DNA from: Fibrobacteria bacterium
Lineage (GTDB): Bacteria > Fibrobacterota > Fibrobacteria > UBA11236
Direction: 5' to 3'
Length of the DNA stretch: 39,121 nucleotides
NCBI GenBank assembly: GCA_025360005.1
Contig: JANYDA010000064.1
Coordinates: 1-39,121, forward strand
A model generated the notes under the pieces. It worked only from the letters and a program-made list of their open reading frames with translations. It did no database searches and was not told the origin of the DNA. Position 1 is the first letter of the stretch. Every line of letters starts with the position of its first letter. A program made the position numbers and the translations under genes. Below, in pieces: positions 8,008-39,121 of the stretch.

Positions 8008-10743
8008 TTATTTGGGCGCTGCGTCGGAAGCGCCGGCCGGTTCGCTGGATTTGGCCGCCAACACGGAAGGCGTTTCCATGAAAGCGGTGCGCTCCGGATC
8101 CTTGGCACAACGGAAACCGACTTTGAAATTCCGGAAACCCGGCCGGTTATTGTACCGGGCGCTCAGGCTGAGGGAGCTGGATTCGCTATACCAGCTGGCC
8201 CCGCGGATGACCTTGGCCGTACCGGTGCCCGGGCCCTTGGGATGATCCAGGTCCGCGGCATTGTAGTCGCCGTACCAGTCTTCCACCCATTCAAATACGT
8301 TACCGGCCATATCGTGCAGGCCCCATGCGTTCGGCTTCTTGAGGCCGACCTTCTGCGTGCGATTGTCCGAGTTGTCGCGATACCAGGCATAATCGCCGGG
8401 ATCCTCCGAGCCCCAATAAAAGGAGGAATTGGCCCCGGCGCGAGCGGCGTATTCCCATTCCGCTTCGGTAGGCAGGCGTCCGCCGGTTTCCCGGCAAAAG
8501 TTGTCCGCCTCTTCCCAAGTCACCCTGTCCACGGGCAAGGAATCCTGCAGCTGATAGGAAGGGTTGCGGCCGGCGATCTTTTCATATTCGGTCTGGGTTA
8601 CCTCGAACTTTCCCAGGAAAAGCGGTCCCACCTGGATCATGCGGCCGTCTTCGCGGCGAAAGCCGCCGCGCGGCAGGTAAACCACGGGATAGGCGGAAGC
8701 GAACGCCTTGGGAGGCTGCGGCACTTGCGGCTCCGGGGATTTGATGGTGAAACTGCGTACCGGACCCTCGCTACGATCCAGGCCGTCGCTGGCGATCACT
8801 TTCCAGAAGTAGGTGATACCGGGCTTAAGGTCCGTAAGGCTCAAGGAAGAATCCGCCAAGCCGCTGACGCGGAGGGAAAGCGGCGGGAACCTGGTATCCA
8901 GGTAAACCGAATACTGCACCTTGGCGCCCGCGTCCGGATCCCCGCCTTTCCAGGCCAAAGCCACGGGCGCGCTGTCCGAAACCACGGCGCCTGAATCCGG
9001 AAAGCGGGCGATGGGTTGGAAGGGCGGACGATTGGGGGACGGGGAAAGGAATGCCACGCCTTCCGCAGGGAAGGCAGGGCTGATGCCCAAGCCGTTCACG
9101 CCCATGGCGCGGAAACGGTATTGGCTGTTCGGCTTCAGGAGGCCGGTCCGGATTTTTGGGGCGACGGCTTTGTCCAACACGGTTTCCCAGGGGCCGGAGC
9201 CCACCTTTTGTTGGATGATGTAGTAGTCCGAACGGGGATAGGTCTGGCATTGCAGCAGAATGCGGTTGCTGTCCGCCTCCTTGATGGCCAATGTCCCTTC
9301 CCTGGGCGGTGAGAACACGGTCTGTTCACCGCTGAAGAGCAGGAAATTGCGGAGCGCATCCGGCCCGGTGAAATTGGTACGCGTTTCCATGAAGATGTTC
9401 GCGCCCAGGCTCAACTCCTTGTTGCCTGCGGAGGCGGTGGAATCGCTATTGGCGTTATTGGCAGGGACTGACCGGGGTTGCCAACCTAAACCCCCCTGGG
9501 TAACCGAGGCGTTACTGGATGCGAGAGGGCCGTTCGCGGCCGCCTGCCATGGAAGGGCCGGAAAGTTGTTGGCGAAGGCGCTCCCCGCCGACATGGCTCC
9601 CTGGGCCCAGGGAGCGCCGGGCGATGGACTGGGCGATGCCGAAAAGCGAACGAAGGGCTCGAAGGTGAATACCGGCCCCTGGACGCCGTCCAGAAGCATT
9701 TCCACGCGCGGCTTGACGGACATCTTGACCTGGCCGTCGCCAGCCAATTCGCGCAGGGCCTTGTCGGCCCAGGTCATCTTGTTCTCAGCCAACGGCCGCC
9801 ATTGGCCGTCCGTGAAGCCGAGTTCGCCCTTGATGGAATTGCGGATGTGGAAATTCCCCTGCGCGGAAAAGGTTTCCCCCCGCGAATGGGTTTCCACATG
9901 AAGGAAAGGGCGGTTCTGTACGCGCAGAAAGAGCCCGGAACCCAACGGCACCAGGGAGGGCGCTTTGCCCGGCAGCTCTTCCTCGTAGTCGAAATCTCCG
10001 GCGCCGGAAACGGAGGTTTTGACGCTGGCCATGACATCGCAATCGCCCGCCACCCGGAATTGAAACAACTCCACATTGCCGGCGCGCACCCGTATCCTGC
10101 CGGTTACGGTAGGCTGGAACAGGACTTGCGCCCCGCTCATGCCTATTCCCATCTGGGCATAGGCGGCCGCGCCGTCCGCGGTGGTACCGATCACGTCCTG
10201 GGATTGGGTCAGATCGGTCAGAGCCTGGTTCAGGTCCATGCGCGTCTTAAAGGCGATGTCGCAATCCTGCACGGCGTCCGGGAGATCCGCGTCTACGGTC
10301 TTGAGGATCCACCGGCGGCCGATGAGGCCCGGCTGGGGCTGCCCGTCCGCGTCCACTATCTTGCGGAGAATGCCGCCGAAAGAGGTATCCGCTATCACGG
10401 TGCCTATCACCGGGACCGAGCCTTCCGGCAGGTCCAGGACCAAGGTGCCGGGAGTGGCGACATAGTCCACCACCTTGCCGTTGCCGGGCAATGTCAGGTC
10501 CAGGTAATTGGGGGCGAATTGGGTGGGGGTCGATCCCATTTCCTCCACGAAGGCGGCGTTTTCGATCTCATAACCTTCGACGCGGATTTTCGCGAGATCA
10601 GGGGCCTGGATGGAGTCGTCCACCGTGATGACGAGCGTATGCTGGCCCACGGCGGCGTTTTCCACCTGCAAAGCTCCCAATGCCAGGGCGCCTGAGCAAA
10701 GCCCCGCCACGGCGAAAACTGCATGTCGGATCCGGGCCAGCAT
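8008..10743 (-). CDS. Exported protein with Fn3-like modules and a C-terminal SUMF1/FGE-fold domain
   Basis: 911 aa from ATG at 10743, which overlaps the TGA of the upstream gene (TGATG). The signal peptide is MLARIRHAVFAVAGLCSGALA. The N-terminal two thirds are beta-rich and unrecognised. Around 500-670 are two Fn3-like modules (PNSQYRFRAMGVNGLG; LKPGITYFWKVIASDG). Residues of about 680-880 form a formylglycine-generating-enzyme fold: GKFEVTQTEYEKI, GGRLPTEAEWEYAARAG, GLHDMAGNVFEWVEDWYGDY, VIRGASWY, VGFRCA. The two catalytic cysteines of true FGE are absent: serines occupy the SWYSESSSLS stretch. It is therefore probably a binding or structural module, as in GldJ/GldK-type and Fibrobacter-type paralogues. 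Surface location is likely; the ligand is unknown. Confidence 0.8.
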   Translation of the reverse strand: MLARIRHAVFAVAGLCSGALALGALQVENAAVGQHTLVITVDDSIQAPDLAKIRVEGYEIENAAFVEEMGSTPTQFAPNYLDLTLPGNGKVVDYVATPGTLVLDLPEGSVPVIGTVIADTSFGGILRKIVDADGQPQPGLIGRRWILKTVDADLPDAVQDCDIAFKTRMDLNQALTDLTQSQDVIGTTADGAAAYAQMGIGMSGAQVLFQPTVTGRIRVRAGNVELFQFRVAGDCDVMASVKTSVSGAGDFDYEEELPGKAPSLVPLGSGLFLRVQNRPFLHVETHSRGETFSAQGNFHIRNSIKGELGFTDGQWRPLAENKMTWADKALRELAGDGQVKMSVKPRVEMLLDGVQGPVFTFEPFVRFSASPSPSPGAPWAQGAMSAGSAFANNFPALPWQAAANGPLASSNASVTQGGLGWQPRSVPANNANSDSTASAGNKELSLGANIFMETRTNFTGPDALRNFLLFSGEQTVFSPPREGTLAIKEADSNRILLQCQTYPRSDYYIIQQKVGSGPWETVLDKAVAPKIRTGLLKPNSQYRFRAMGVNGLGISPAFPAEGVAFLSPSPNRPPFQPIARFPDSGAVVSDSAPVALAWKGGDPDAGAKVQYSVYLDTRFPPLSLRVSGLADSSLSLTDLKPGITYFWKVIASDGLDRSEGPVRSFTIKSPEPQVPQPPKAFASAYPVVYLPRGGFRREDGRMIQVGPLFLGKFEVTQTEYEKIAGRNPSYQLQDSLPVDRVTWEEADNFCRETGGRLPTEAEWEYAARAGANSSFYWGSEDPGDYAWYRDNSDNRTQKVGLKKPNAWGLHDMAGNVFEWVEDWYGDYNAADLDHPKGPGTGTAKVIRGASWYSESSSLSLSARYNNRPGFRNFKVGFRCAKDPERTAFMETPSVLAAKSSEPAGASDAAPK

Positions 10744-22319: not shown

Positions 22320-22694
22320 ATGCGGATGAACGAAACGATGCATTTGCATACGGCGCGGCAAGCCCGGGACGCGGTGTCCGCCTCCGGACGGATGCCGGTC
22401 TTCGTCTTCAAGCACAGCACGCAATGCGGCCTCAGCGCGCGCGCCATCCGGGAGTTCCGGACTTTCGCGGCAGGCCAGGCGCCGGGCCTAGCCTATTGCC
22501 AAGTGGATGTGATCGAATTCCGGGCCGCATCCGACGCGCTCGAAACCTTGTCATTGGTGCGGCATGAATCGCCGCAGGTGCTGGCATGGCTGGACGGGGA
22601 ATGCTTGTGGCATGCGAGCCACGGCGGCATCAAGGCGGCGGCGCTGGCCGAGCAGGCGCAGAGGTTGCGCGATCGGGCGGAGAGAGATCAATGA
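22320..22694 (+). CDS. YtxJ-family bacilliredoxin-like protein
   Basis: 124 aa thioredoxin-like fold. The motif FVFKHSTQCGLSARAIREF carries the single active Cys36 in a CGLS setting, where Bacillus YtxJ (BrxC) has CPIS. LVRHESPQVLAWLDGE and LWHASHGGIKAAAL match the conserved cis-Pro and HASHG parts of the family. YtxJ proteins remove bacillithiol from S-bacillithiolated proteins, so this suggests the host uses bacillithiol or a relative (inference). The stop overlaps the ATG of the next gene (ATGA), and bcp is divergent. A second ATG at 22326 is possible. Confidence 0.85.
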   Translation: MRMNETMHLHTARQARDAVSASGRMPVFVFKHSTQCGLSARAIREFRTFAAGQAPGLAYCQVDVIEFRAASDALETLSLVRHESPQVLAWLDGECLWHASHGGIKAAALAEQAQRLRDRAERDQ

Positions 22695-35420: not shown

Positions 35421-35455
35421 GCCGGCCGGATGAGGGGGATTCTCTCCGTTTTTTT

Positions 35456-35461
35456 TATACT
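35456..35461 (+). promoter_or_regulatory. -10-like box, TATACT, before corA
   Basis: TATACT lies 10 nt before ATG 35472, after a run of T's. The predicted leader would be only a few nucleotides. Confidence 0.35.
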
Positions 35462-35471
35462 TTCCGCGGCT

Positions 35472-36443
35472 ATGGACGGACTGCGCGGGTATCTGATCAA
35501 GTCCGATAAATCATGCTCCCACGTGGATACGGTTTCCGCGCTGGATTCCGCTACCGCCCCGGAGACCAAGCTGCTGTGGGTGGATATCTACGGCGAACTT
35601 TCCGGGGAAGTCGAATCCGCGCTGGGGCGCGTGCTGGGTTGGCATCCCATCGTATTGGAGAACTTCCACCTGGCCAGCTCGCGGCCCAAGCTGATCAACT
35701 TCGACCGTTACAGCCAGGTGACCCTGCACGCTTTGAATCTCGATCGGCCCGCCGAAGAGAGGCTTACCATCGAAATCGACGTGGTAATCGCCAAGACTTA
35801 CCTCATCACCTACCACCGCCACCCTGTGAGAAGCATCGAGGAGACGCTCGAGGATCTGAGCGCGGGCAGGCTGGCCTCGGTCGGCGCCGATGAATTGCTG
35901 TACCATATCATTTCCCACGGGATCGACAAGTATACGCCCGCCATCGAGGAGAAGAAGGATCTGATCGCCTCCCTGGAACAGGAGGCCCTTTACGATCCGG
36001 GCCAGAACCTTTTGGAACGTATCGTGCTGCTGCGCGATGAGGTCATGGAGTTGGCCGTGGTCATGACCCCGCAGCAACTTATCCTGACGCAAATGGCCAC
36101 GGGCGTGTGCCGGCACGTACGCCCGTTCATCCGACCCTATTTCAAGGATGCCGAAAGCCGCCTGCGCAACCTCATCGATGAGCTGGTCACCTACAAGGAG
36201 ATGCTCGCCAATTCCCTGGAGCTGTACCGCTCGGCCATGTCTTCCCGCACCAACGACACCATGAAGGTACTCACCATCCTATCGGTGATGTTCATGCCGC
36301 TCAACTTCCTCACCGGCCTGTTCGGCATGAACGTGGGCGTGCCGCTGTCGGGACACCACCACGCCTTCAGCTTCATACTCATTCTGTGCGGCGTGAGTTT
36401 CGCGGGCATGATGATCTACTTCAAAGCCAAGTCCTGGTTCTGA
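35472..36443 (+). CDS. corA: CorA family Mg2+/Co2+ transporter
   Basis: 323 aa from ATG at 35472 (MDGLRGYLIKSDKSCSH). The cytoplasmic N-terminal domain (about 1-255) is alpha/beta then long-helical (IDKYTPAIEEKKDLIASLEQ). The C-terminus has two membrane helices: TMKVLTILSVMFMPLNFLTG, then the selectivity loop LFGMNVGVP with the invariant GMN, and the last helix (FSFILILCGVSFAGMMIYF) ending in a basic tail. The pentamer forms an inward Mg2+ channel; in this family Co2+ and Ni2+ can also pass. It is divergent from the RND gene across 106 bp. Confidence 0.93.
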   Translation: MDGLRGYLIKSDKSCSHVDTVSALDSATAPETKLLWVDIYGELSGEVESALGRVLGWHPIVLENFHLASSRPKLINFDRYSQVTLHALNLDRPAEERLTIEIDVVIAKTYLITYHRHPVRSIEETLEDLSAGRLASVGADELLYHIISHGIDKYTPAIEEKKDLIASLEQEALYDPGQNLLERIVLLRDEVMELAVVMTPQQLILTQMATGVCRHVRPFIRPYFKDAESRLRNLIDELVTYKEMLANSLELYRSAMSSRTNDTMKVLTILSVMFMPLNFLTGLFGMNVGVPLSGHHHAFSFILILCGVSFAGMMIYFKAKSWF

Positions 36444-36468
36444 AGCGCGGGCTGGTAACCCCCGCTTC
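36442..36468. terminator. Hairpin spanning the two convergent stops (corA and GCS2-like)
   Basis: GAAGCGCGGG (36442-36451) pairs with CCCCCGCTTC (36459-36468) with one mismatch and a 7-nt loop. It includes the last bases of both stop codons (TGA of corA at 36441-36443, and TGA of the minus gene at 36469-36467). No U-tract. Probably a two-way mRNA end. Confidence 0.5.
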
Positions 36469-37720
36469 AGCCCACGGAGAAAGCTTCGTCCCCGTCCAGG
36501 CACTCGCACAGGCGCCTGTAAACGGAGGGATAGCGCGCGGGCAGCGGGGCCGCCCGTAGAATCCGTTCCGACAGGTTGCCTTGGGATAGGATCAATTCAA
36601 TGGCCGGCAGGAAAGCCGCATCGGCCGCGGAGGCTTTCGCATCGGCATCCGCGCCCGCCCTTGCGCCCAGGCTCACGGCCGTCAAGGACCTGATGAAGGC
36701 TCCTACGGTGGGCTGCGCATCCACGCCGAAAGCGGCGAACGGGAACGCGGCCGGCATGGATGCGGCCATGCCCAGCCTTGCGCTGTCCAGGAACAGGGAT
36801 CGCAGCAGGCCTTCCGGGACCTTCCGGTGCGCGGCCAGCGGATCCTCCCCCGTATCCAGCGCGTGGCGTAACATGCATGTTATCCAATGGCACAAGGCCA
36901 GATCCGCGGTGGGCCGTTCCTGCGTATCCAGGCAGCGGATCTCGATGGTGTTCCGATCGAAACGCGCGATGGCGGCGCGCGAATTGAGCCATTCTTCCTG
37001 CATAATGCCCTCTGTATCCAGCGGCGCGATGTCGCGGAACATCGGCGCCAGGATTTTCTCGCGGTATTCCCCTTCGCTGCCCACCGGCTCCGGGATGATG
37101 CCGCCGATGATGGAGGGCAAGCGCCGTTGGTTATTCACGTAATGGGAAAGGCGCCCGTCCAGCCAGCCGTGGTGGGCGCCATCATGGACGGGGCTGGAGG
37201 CGGCGAGCGCAGGCAGCAAGGGCAAAAGCAGGCTGATGGCGTTGTGCAGCCGGGAGAATTCCGCGTCCCCGGAAAAAGGCAGGTTGAGATGCACGCTCTG
37301 GATGTTGAACCAGCCGTGGCCGCGAACGCCGAAAAGCCGGTCGTAGGTTTCATAGATGGCGCGATCCTGGTGCGGCCAGATCCTGGATTCGCGGGCCGGG
37401 TCCATGAAAGGATGCATGCCGCCGGGCATCAAGCGGCAATCCCAGCGCGCCAGGGCGCGGTTGGCTTGCTTCACGTAGGCGGCGAAGTCGCGGGCCTGTG
37501 CGGCCAGATCGCGGGCGGGCCGTTTGCATTTGAGCTCCAGCACGTGCGCCGCCAGCTCATTGTCCGCTTCCACGTTGCCGGCGGCGGGATGGGAATCCGG
37601 GTCGCCGCCCAGGGCCGCGAGCAACCGATCCGCGGAAGGATCCACGGCCAGGGTATCGCAATGCACCACGGCGTACTCGATCTCGACGCCGAAGACTTCG
37701 AAAAGGGAATAGCGGTTTAT
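36467..37720 (-). CDS. GCS2-family glutamate-cysteine ligase-like enzyme, probable ATA start
   Basis: About 417 aa. The family activates the gamma-carboxylate of glutamate with ATP and joins it to an amine such as cysteine. From the start it reads [26 protein letters not shown] is the conserved N-terminal G-x-E-x-E-Y motif. The first standard start (GTG 37669) would cut it off. The only candidate at the natural position is ATA (37720-37718), overlapping the TAA of the ligase gene before it (ATAA), with AGGT 7 nt upstream. Other features: [30 protein letters not shown] (substrate-binding strand), [18 protein letters not shown] and [20 protein letters not shown]. The real acceptor need not be cysteine, given the ATP-grasp partner. 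Confidence 0.85.
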
Positions 37721-39121
37721 CGGACGACCTGCAGGTTGAGGAGCTTTACGATCTCGGCCGGCATGGCCGGCTCGCGATCCTTGCGCTGCTTAAGCTTGTC
37801 GATGCGGTTGACGAACTCTTCCATGATGGTGTTGTAGAGGGAATCCTTCAGCACCTGGTCCTCCACGCCCACGTCGATGTTGGGATTGTCGTTCACTTCC
37901 ACCACGTAGGGTTTTTTGCCCACCACCTTGATATCCACGCCGTACAGGCCGTCGCCGATAAGCTTGGCGGCCTTGAGCGCGGTGTTGATGATGAAAGGCT
38001 CCACCTGGGAAACATGGTAGGTCAGGTGGGCGCCCTCGCCCGTCTTGCCGTCCTGGTGGTGGTTGATGATCTGCCAATGGTTCCGGGACATGAAATACTT
38101 GCAGGCGAACAGGGGCTTGCCGTTGAAGATGCCTATGCGCCAGTCGAACTCGGTGGGCATGAACTCCTGCGCGATGATGTAGTCCGAGCGCTTGAAGTAT
38201 TCCTTGCATACCGAGGCCAGTTCGCCCGGGTCCTGCACCTTGACCACGCCGCGCGAAAACGATCCGTCCGGGATCTTGATGATGATGGGGAACGAGAACT
38301 GCTCATAGATGTCGACGACATTGTCCTCGCTCAGGATGAAGGTCTTGGGGCGGGGGATGCCTTCCCGCTTGAACAGCTCGTTGAGGAAGATCTTATTGGT
38401 GCAGTACAGGATGGATTTGGGATCGTCGATGACGACGATCTTCTCCTTCTCCGCCTTCTTGGCGAAGCGGAAGGTATGGTGATCGATGGAGGTGGTCTCG
38501 CGGATGAAGAGGCCGTCGAATTCCGGCAAGTGGGCGAAATCCTTTTTCTCGATCACTTCCACGGAGAGGCCGTTGTTCTTGCCGGCCTTGATGAATTTCT
38601 GGATGGCGGCATCGTCCGAGGGCGAGAACCGTTCGGTGGGATTGTGCAGGATGGCCAGATCGTAGCGGGCGGAATTGTTCTGGCGCTTGATGCCCCAGCG
38701 GTGGATGGTGAATTCCACCAAGGCTTCCAGGAACACGGCGATGTGGGATTCCGGGATGCTGTTGATGGACATGGAGCGGATCGAAGTCAGGATCCATTGC
38801 TTTTCGCGGCGGAAGTAGACCTTGAAGAACGGGCAGGGGAACAGGTTGAAGAACATGCGCGAGATCTTCTCGTACTTCTTGGACACGTTCTTGCCGAAGT
38901 ACACGGACAGCTCGTATTTGTTGTCCGTGATGTTGGCCAGATCCTTCTGGATCTGCGCGTTCAAATCGTCCGTCTCGATCAGGTAGAATTCCTTTTTCGA
39001 GAGCGCCTGCATGGTGGAGATGTTGGGCAGCACCTTGTGGCCACGGGCCTCCGCGACCAAACTTACGTAGTAGCCCGATCCCAGGTAGCCGTAATTGTTG
39101 GCCAGGTTGATGATCTTCAGC
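37717..39121 (-). CDS. RLAN-domain RimK-like ATP-grasp ligase (5' end outside the window)
   Basis: At least 467 codons; the frame is open to the window edge and reads [20 protein letters not shown] there, so only a short N-terminal piece is missing. The first 200 residues match the RLAN (RimK-like ATP-grasp N-terminal) type: [40 protein letters not shown]. The ATP-grasp core follows: [77 protein letters not shown] then DNPNID, with metal-binding Glu/Asn. RLAN proteins are predicted to ligate amino acids onto a peptide or protein. Stop TAA overlaps the next gene's ATA, so the two are coupled. Confidence 0.88.

Follow-up and report, generated by a model that had tools for sequence, protein, structure and literature searches.

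The window, that is the whole stretch of 39,121 nucleotides analysed here, is the entire contig C19, one of the 65 contigs of a 98% complete genome of 4.98 Mb. Two ligase genes occupy its last part on the minus strand, and a genome-wide count found a single member of each of the two families. The features referred to below are as follows.

37717..39121, minus strand: RLAN-domain RimK-like ATP-grasp ligase (PF14401 and PF08443); 467 C-terminal codons are in the window, and the initial ~40 are on contig C17.
36467..37720, minus strand: GCS2-family gamma-glutamyl carboxylate-amine ligase (PF04107), 417 aa if the start is the ATA at 37720.
37676..37690, minus strand: GhExE Mg/ATP signature of GCS2 (here G-V-E-I-E), upstream of the first canonical start, GTG 37669.
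37717..37730, minus strand: RLAN/GCS2 junction AGGT-CGTCCG-ATAA, an SD-like AGGT followed by ATA, the putative start of GCS2, which shares bases with the RLAN stop TAA.
35430-36443, convergent: CorA gene downstream of the RLAN-GCS2 pair.
22341..22643, plus strand: BrxC/YtxJ bacilliredoxin, with a second copy on contig C9.

The analysis of domain matches confirmed the gene pair at the positions proposed by the sequence-only reading. The first protein matched PF14401 (RLAN) with E=1.8e-41 (141.7 bits against a gathering score of 25) and PF08443 (RimK) with E=3.3e-10 (40.3 bits against 21); the second matched PF04107 (GCS2) with E=7.3e-28 (98.2 bits against 21). Scores against subfamily models were below cut-off, namely 79.7 for RLAN against the RimK subfamily TIGR00768 (cut-off 143.4) and 58.8 for GCS2 against the YbdK subfamily TIGR02050 (cut-off 176.4). 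Both proteins keep their family signatures. Invariant RLAN residues include K282, D326-W-R328, E408 and N410-D-N412-P, and the GCS2 of the window keeps every position that is invariant in an alignment of 19 relatives, including G9-E11-E13 (GhExE), N52-E53, H57, E60, H101-P102, R188, R246, R254 and E258. The loss of active-site motifs that the earlier reading had named as evidence against itself was thus not seen. GhExE is the Mg/ATP-site signature of the superfamily to which GCS2 belongs (PMC2588565).

Predicted structures agree with these assignments. The best PDB matches of the RLAN AlphaFold model (pLDDT 87.6) were RimK (5zct, 7qyr, 7qys) and ArgX/LysX (3vpb, 5k2m), with alignments of ~310 columns, so that none of the matches listed could extend over the RLAN domain too. 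For the GCS2 model (pLDDT 90) the nearest solved fold was YbdK (1r8g, E=8.7e-13, TM 0.67-0.77), followed by plant glutamate-cysteine ligase and then GshA, with the depupylase Dop and the Pup ligase PafA lower; a sequence search of solved structures with GCS2 returned the plant enzyme alone, at marginal E. The pN/pS ratio was 0.02 for RLAN in comparison with one relative and about 0.20 for GCS2 in comparison with two relatives, the latter indicating purifying selection and hence that the GCS2 protein is made. Overall, the window ends in a genuine, intact pair of genes for predicted amide-bond-forming enzymes.

The start of GCS2 needed separate consideration. It had been proposed that the RLAN stop codon overlaps the GCS2 start; this holds only for a non-canonical ATA start and fails for ATG, GTG or TTG, none of which precedes GhExE, the first being GTG 37669, which lies beyond that motif. 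From ATA 37720-37718 onward the GCS2 frame is open; the last two bases of this ATA are the first two of the RLAN stop TAA (37719-37717), and AGGT sits six bases upstream of ATA. Five species of the genus share the junction CGATAAAC without any difference, and in all five the GCS2 frame is open from ATA. In the four species other than that of the window, ATA is followed by 26 to 74 in-frame stop-free codons rich in Pro/Ala/Ser and then by the GCS2 domain; the linkers of all four stay open in about 3% of base shuffles. In the codon usage here, CGA makes up 4% of Arg codons. In three of these four species a GTG or TTG in frame within the linker is a possible start, and in the fourth a GTG occurs late; a true lack of alternatives to ATA is thus confined to the window. 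A sixth species has a GCS2 with a normal ATG after a separate RLAN stop. A -1 frameshift fusing RLAN to GCS2 would be the rival to an ATA start. As no slippery heptamer is visible, we prefer, without regarding it as proven, a start at AUA that is coupled to the stop of RLAN.

The contig end was correctly taken to truncate RLAN at 39121, and the missing 5′ part was located at the end of contig C17. The C17 end and the C19 start map to the sister sequence at 9942 and 9946, three bases apart, in frame and inside RLAN. In the nearest relative (G002, locus L023) a 230-aa C39-like peptidase gene precedes RLAN and overlaps its start. The corresponding C39/papain-like peptidase gene of the genome studied here (C17:149020-149706) lies 188 bases from the C17 end; its product is 90% identical to the G002 copy and is a stand-alone protein of 229 aa without GNAT. 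Across this join C39, RLAN and GCS2 are adjacent and co-directional. The operon order C39, RLAN, GCS2 across C17 and C19 would follow from the sister genome, where the genes are continuous, while no contig spans the join; the same arrangement recurs throughout the genus and in many phyla. Amino-acid identity to the sister species is 99% for RLAN (37717-39121 compared with L023:8654-10174), 90% for C39 and 75% for GCS2. In three of the six genomes sampled from the genus the RLAN gene is split by a contig break (window end 39121; G001 C173/C217; G004 C8/C36), probably an assembly effect of the high RLAN conservation.

Of the neighbours expected by the sequence-only reading, the papain-fold peptidase was found, but it stands alone here instead of being fused to GNAT; M20 peptidases and ferredoxins were not recurrent in a coarse search in which shadow ORFs dominated the large clusters and weak associations could be missed. 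No conserved small protein or ORF adjoins the operon in the genus, and a RiPP precursor or small tagged protein there was rejected on this ground. A defence system was likewise rejected, there being no PADLOC match. A gene for a DUF4412 protein lies directly upstream of C39 in the same direction (L038:8125-8904, equal to C17:148125-148904), and a gene for a transglutaminase-core protein is divergent from it (L038:6550-8088, equal to C17:146550-148088); both are conserved in the genus.

The distribution of the genes was analysed in 61 genomes of the class, the figures not being corrected for relatedness. RLAN was found in 47 of the 61. GCS2 was present in 45 of the 47 RLAN-bearing genomes, normally beside RLAN, and in none of the 14 without RLAN, so the pairing is not due to chance; for the C39 gene the figures were 44 of 47 and 0 of 14. 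Two genomes, G016 (L033) and G055 (L032), carry an orphan RLAN with no GCS2 or C39 detectable anywhere in either. An N-formylglutamate-amidohydrolase-like (FGase) gene is a recurrent neighbour (13 loci). In some genomes it directly follows GCS2; elsewhere C39 is apart from RLAN and forms an overlapping pair with FGase (e.g. 342133-342816 and 342813-343493 in G032). A Legionella record lists a RimK family protein, a glutamate-cysteine ligase family protein and an N-formylglutamate amidohydrolase consecutively. A profile search (A5) found no linked-type FGase in any of the six genomes of the genus, and the genome studied here has just a distant member, at C21. A scan of named genomes for RLAN gave more than 580 matching stretches. 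Among the best 80 examined, the GCS2 arrangement was seen in Bacteroidota (Roseivirga, Adhaeribacter, Balneolaceae), Planctomycetota, Nitrospirota and Verrucomicrobiota, and also in Krumholzibacteriia, Tectomicrobia, desulfobacterial and some proteobacterial loci.

Comparison of 99 RLAN loci, with counts taken from those having enough flank, revealed two types. Stand-alone C39 occurred with GCS2 at 20 loci and without it at one, and the GNAT-C39 fusion with GCS2 at none and without it at 37 (Fisher p about 1e-14; this value is not independent evidence, since GNAT versus GCS2 requires one change on the RLAN tree and the exclusivity is a single deep split). The GCS2 loci all group within a single 36-row clade (SH-aLRT 99, quick method). 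Four loci have GCS2 but no adjacent C39, and 19 have neither partner; Rhodanobacter/Lysobacterales loci without nearby C39 or GCS2 form one clade (L082, L094, L100, L105, L108, L117, L118, L121). The long form was identified by Pfam as DUF3335 fused to GNAT in two examples, the rest being classed by length and domain position, and the GNAT domain of one fusion passes the NCBIfam RimI cut-off (87.6 versus 86.4). Both types retain the peptidase's Cys, His, Asp and Gln. Only three diagnostic RLAN columns separate them (V18/C, I121/L and P321/Y), P321 being five residues before the D-W-R motif. The placing of GNAT-papain and GCS2 in one cluster, as in the earlier reading, therefore mixes two variants that never occurred together across the 99 loci. 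The presence of a near-identical RLAN in both suggests one ligation step served by alternative N-capping enzymes, which would be gamma-glutamyl (GCS2) or acetyl (GNAT).

Based on these observations we tentatively read the locus, at somewhat less than an even chance, as the 3′ part of a C39-RLAN-GCS2 operon for the synthesis, and probably also the trimming or recycling, of a short N-capped peptide. GCS2 with ATP would activate the gamma-carboxylate of glutamate and couple it to an amine to yield an amino acid with a gamma-glutamyl cap; RLAN would then activate the free carboxylate of this product as an acyl phosphate and add a further amino acid. Such an order would parallel GshA followed by GshB, with a product other than glutathione. 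The C39-like Cys/His/Asp enzyme would cleave the product, as the FGase-like amidohydrolase may in other bacteria; in the sister clade a fusion of the peptidase to a RimI-like GNAT takes the place of GCS2, which suggests acetyl capping. The analysis shows the genes and their order, the families with their intact signatures, purifying selection, the association of the genes and the split between GNAT and GCS2. From these we infer the reaction order, the substrates, the product, its status as a free metabolite and the role of the peptidase. An N-capped short peptide is most simply expected from a gamma-glutamyl ligase, an ATP-grasp ligase and a cysteine hydrolase in one operon, and the swap of GCS2 for an acetyltransferase around a near-unchanged RLAN fits two routes for blocking the amino group before carboxylate activation. 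Against it stand the RLAN genes without partners in G016 and G055 and the absence of linked FGase from the genus; nor does metabolite synthesis obviously need a C39-type peptidase. A broader statement, which we regard as doubtful, is that the peptide made by RLAN bears a cap which is swapped between lineages (gamma-glutamyl with GCS2 in one clade across many phyla, acetyl with GNAT-C39 mostly in proteobacteria) and that in five species GCS2 would start at AUA or arise by frameshift fusion and carry a Pro/Ala/Ser-rich linker that is disordered and variable.

Proteins or carrier proteins are the targets of many close fold relatives of RLAN (RimK, LysX/ArgX), which makes modification of a protein target, rather than of a free peptide, a serious rival, although in our estimate a rather unlikely one. 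RimK and ArgX/LysX are the nearest RLAN folds, and the cysteine peptidase is the most constant partner, as would suit a ligase/protease pair such as RimK/RimB (PMC12239564); GCS2 is in turn related to the Pup ligase family (PMC2588565). Protein tagging is disfavoured by the lack of a conserved small protein adjoining the operon in the genus and by the RLAN score below the RimK subfamily cut-off. The co-occurrence of two hydrolases with two ligases would also suit a Puu-like catabolic scheme, in which an amine or amino acid would be marked for degradation by GCS2 and RLAN and the resulting conjugates would be hydrolysed by C39 and FGase. However, the coarse recurrent-neighbour search found no oxidase, dehydrogenase or uptake gene recurrent at RLAN loci, and the extreme RLAN conservation better fits a core function; we consider this scheme improbable.

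Ordinary synthesis of glutathione or gamma-glutamylcysteine, with GCS2 as a GshA-like and RLAN as a GshB-like enzyme, would follow the same two-ligase logic; the GCS2 family includes glutamate-cysteine ligases and RLAN weakly matches glutathione synthase models. Nevertheless, every glutathione and YbdK family model scored far below its cut-off, and neither a glutathione synthetase ATP domain (PF02955) nor a classical GshA (PF04262) was found in the 98% complete genome, so a glutathione pathway was rejected. BshC is present on contig C40 and, with the two BrxC/YtxJ copies, suggests the use of bacillithiol. Taken together, these presences and absences make glutathione unlikely as a product of the genome and leave such a role for the pair very improbable. 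The earlier suspicions that GCS2, here a single gene, may not serve glutathione and that the YtxJ-like bacilliredoxin hints at another thiol both stand.

Returning to the N-capped peptide, its parts are probably not new. Iyer, Abhiman, Burroughs and Aravind reportedly predicted in 2009 that RLAN/RimK-like ATP-grasp neighbourhoods with GCS2 and GNAT-papain make or modify peptides. The locus described here has the same families and fits that general prediction, but its papain-like gene stands alone, GNAT is absent, and the GCS2-type and GNAT-type form separate clades. PMC10318531 also refers to Iyer et al. 2009 where it treats GNAT-DUF3335 proteins as candidate peptide ligases. The GNAT-DUF3335 (C39-like) loci of Pseudomonas and other Proteobacteria have a homologous RLAN (45-50% identity) and the same C/H/D triad, with a RimI-like acetyltransferase domain where GCS2 stands here. 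RimK/RimB glutamylation of ribosomal S6 (PMC12239564, PMC10092738) likewise pairs an ATP-grasp ligase of the same fold with a peptidase; the present operon differs in the extra RLAN domain, in C39 in place of an aspartic peptidase, in the added GCS2 and in scoring below the RimK cut-off. YbdK (PDB 1r8g) shares the fold and the GhExE signature with the GCS2 of the window, which lies below the YbdK subfamily cut-off and whose family normally adjoins RLAN. In glutathione synthesis by GshA and GshB a gamma-glutamyl ligase is also followed by an ATP-grasp ligase, but the genome has no canonical GshA or GshB, the families differ and the operon includes a peptidase. A search of the literature on RLAN, DUF3335 and related terms found no functional study and no described RLAN product. 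As far as we know, the families and the prediction that they make or modify peptides are already published, and production of a small peptide by the cluster has probably been predicted before. Two points may be novel, namely the reading of the GNAT/GCS2 split as an exchange between clades and the ATA junction.

RLAN ligases are widespread among bacteria, as the more than 580 stretches matched in the scan show. The split into GCS2 and GNAT types yields a testable statement, that RLAN acts on an amino acid whose amino group is blocked, and comparison of deletion strains in tractable hosts could reveal a common small peptide or protein mark.
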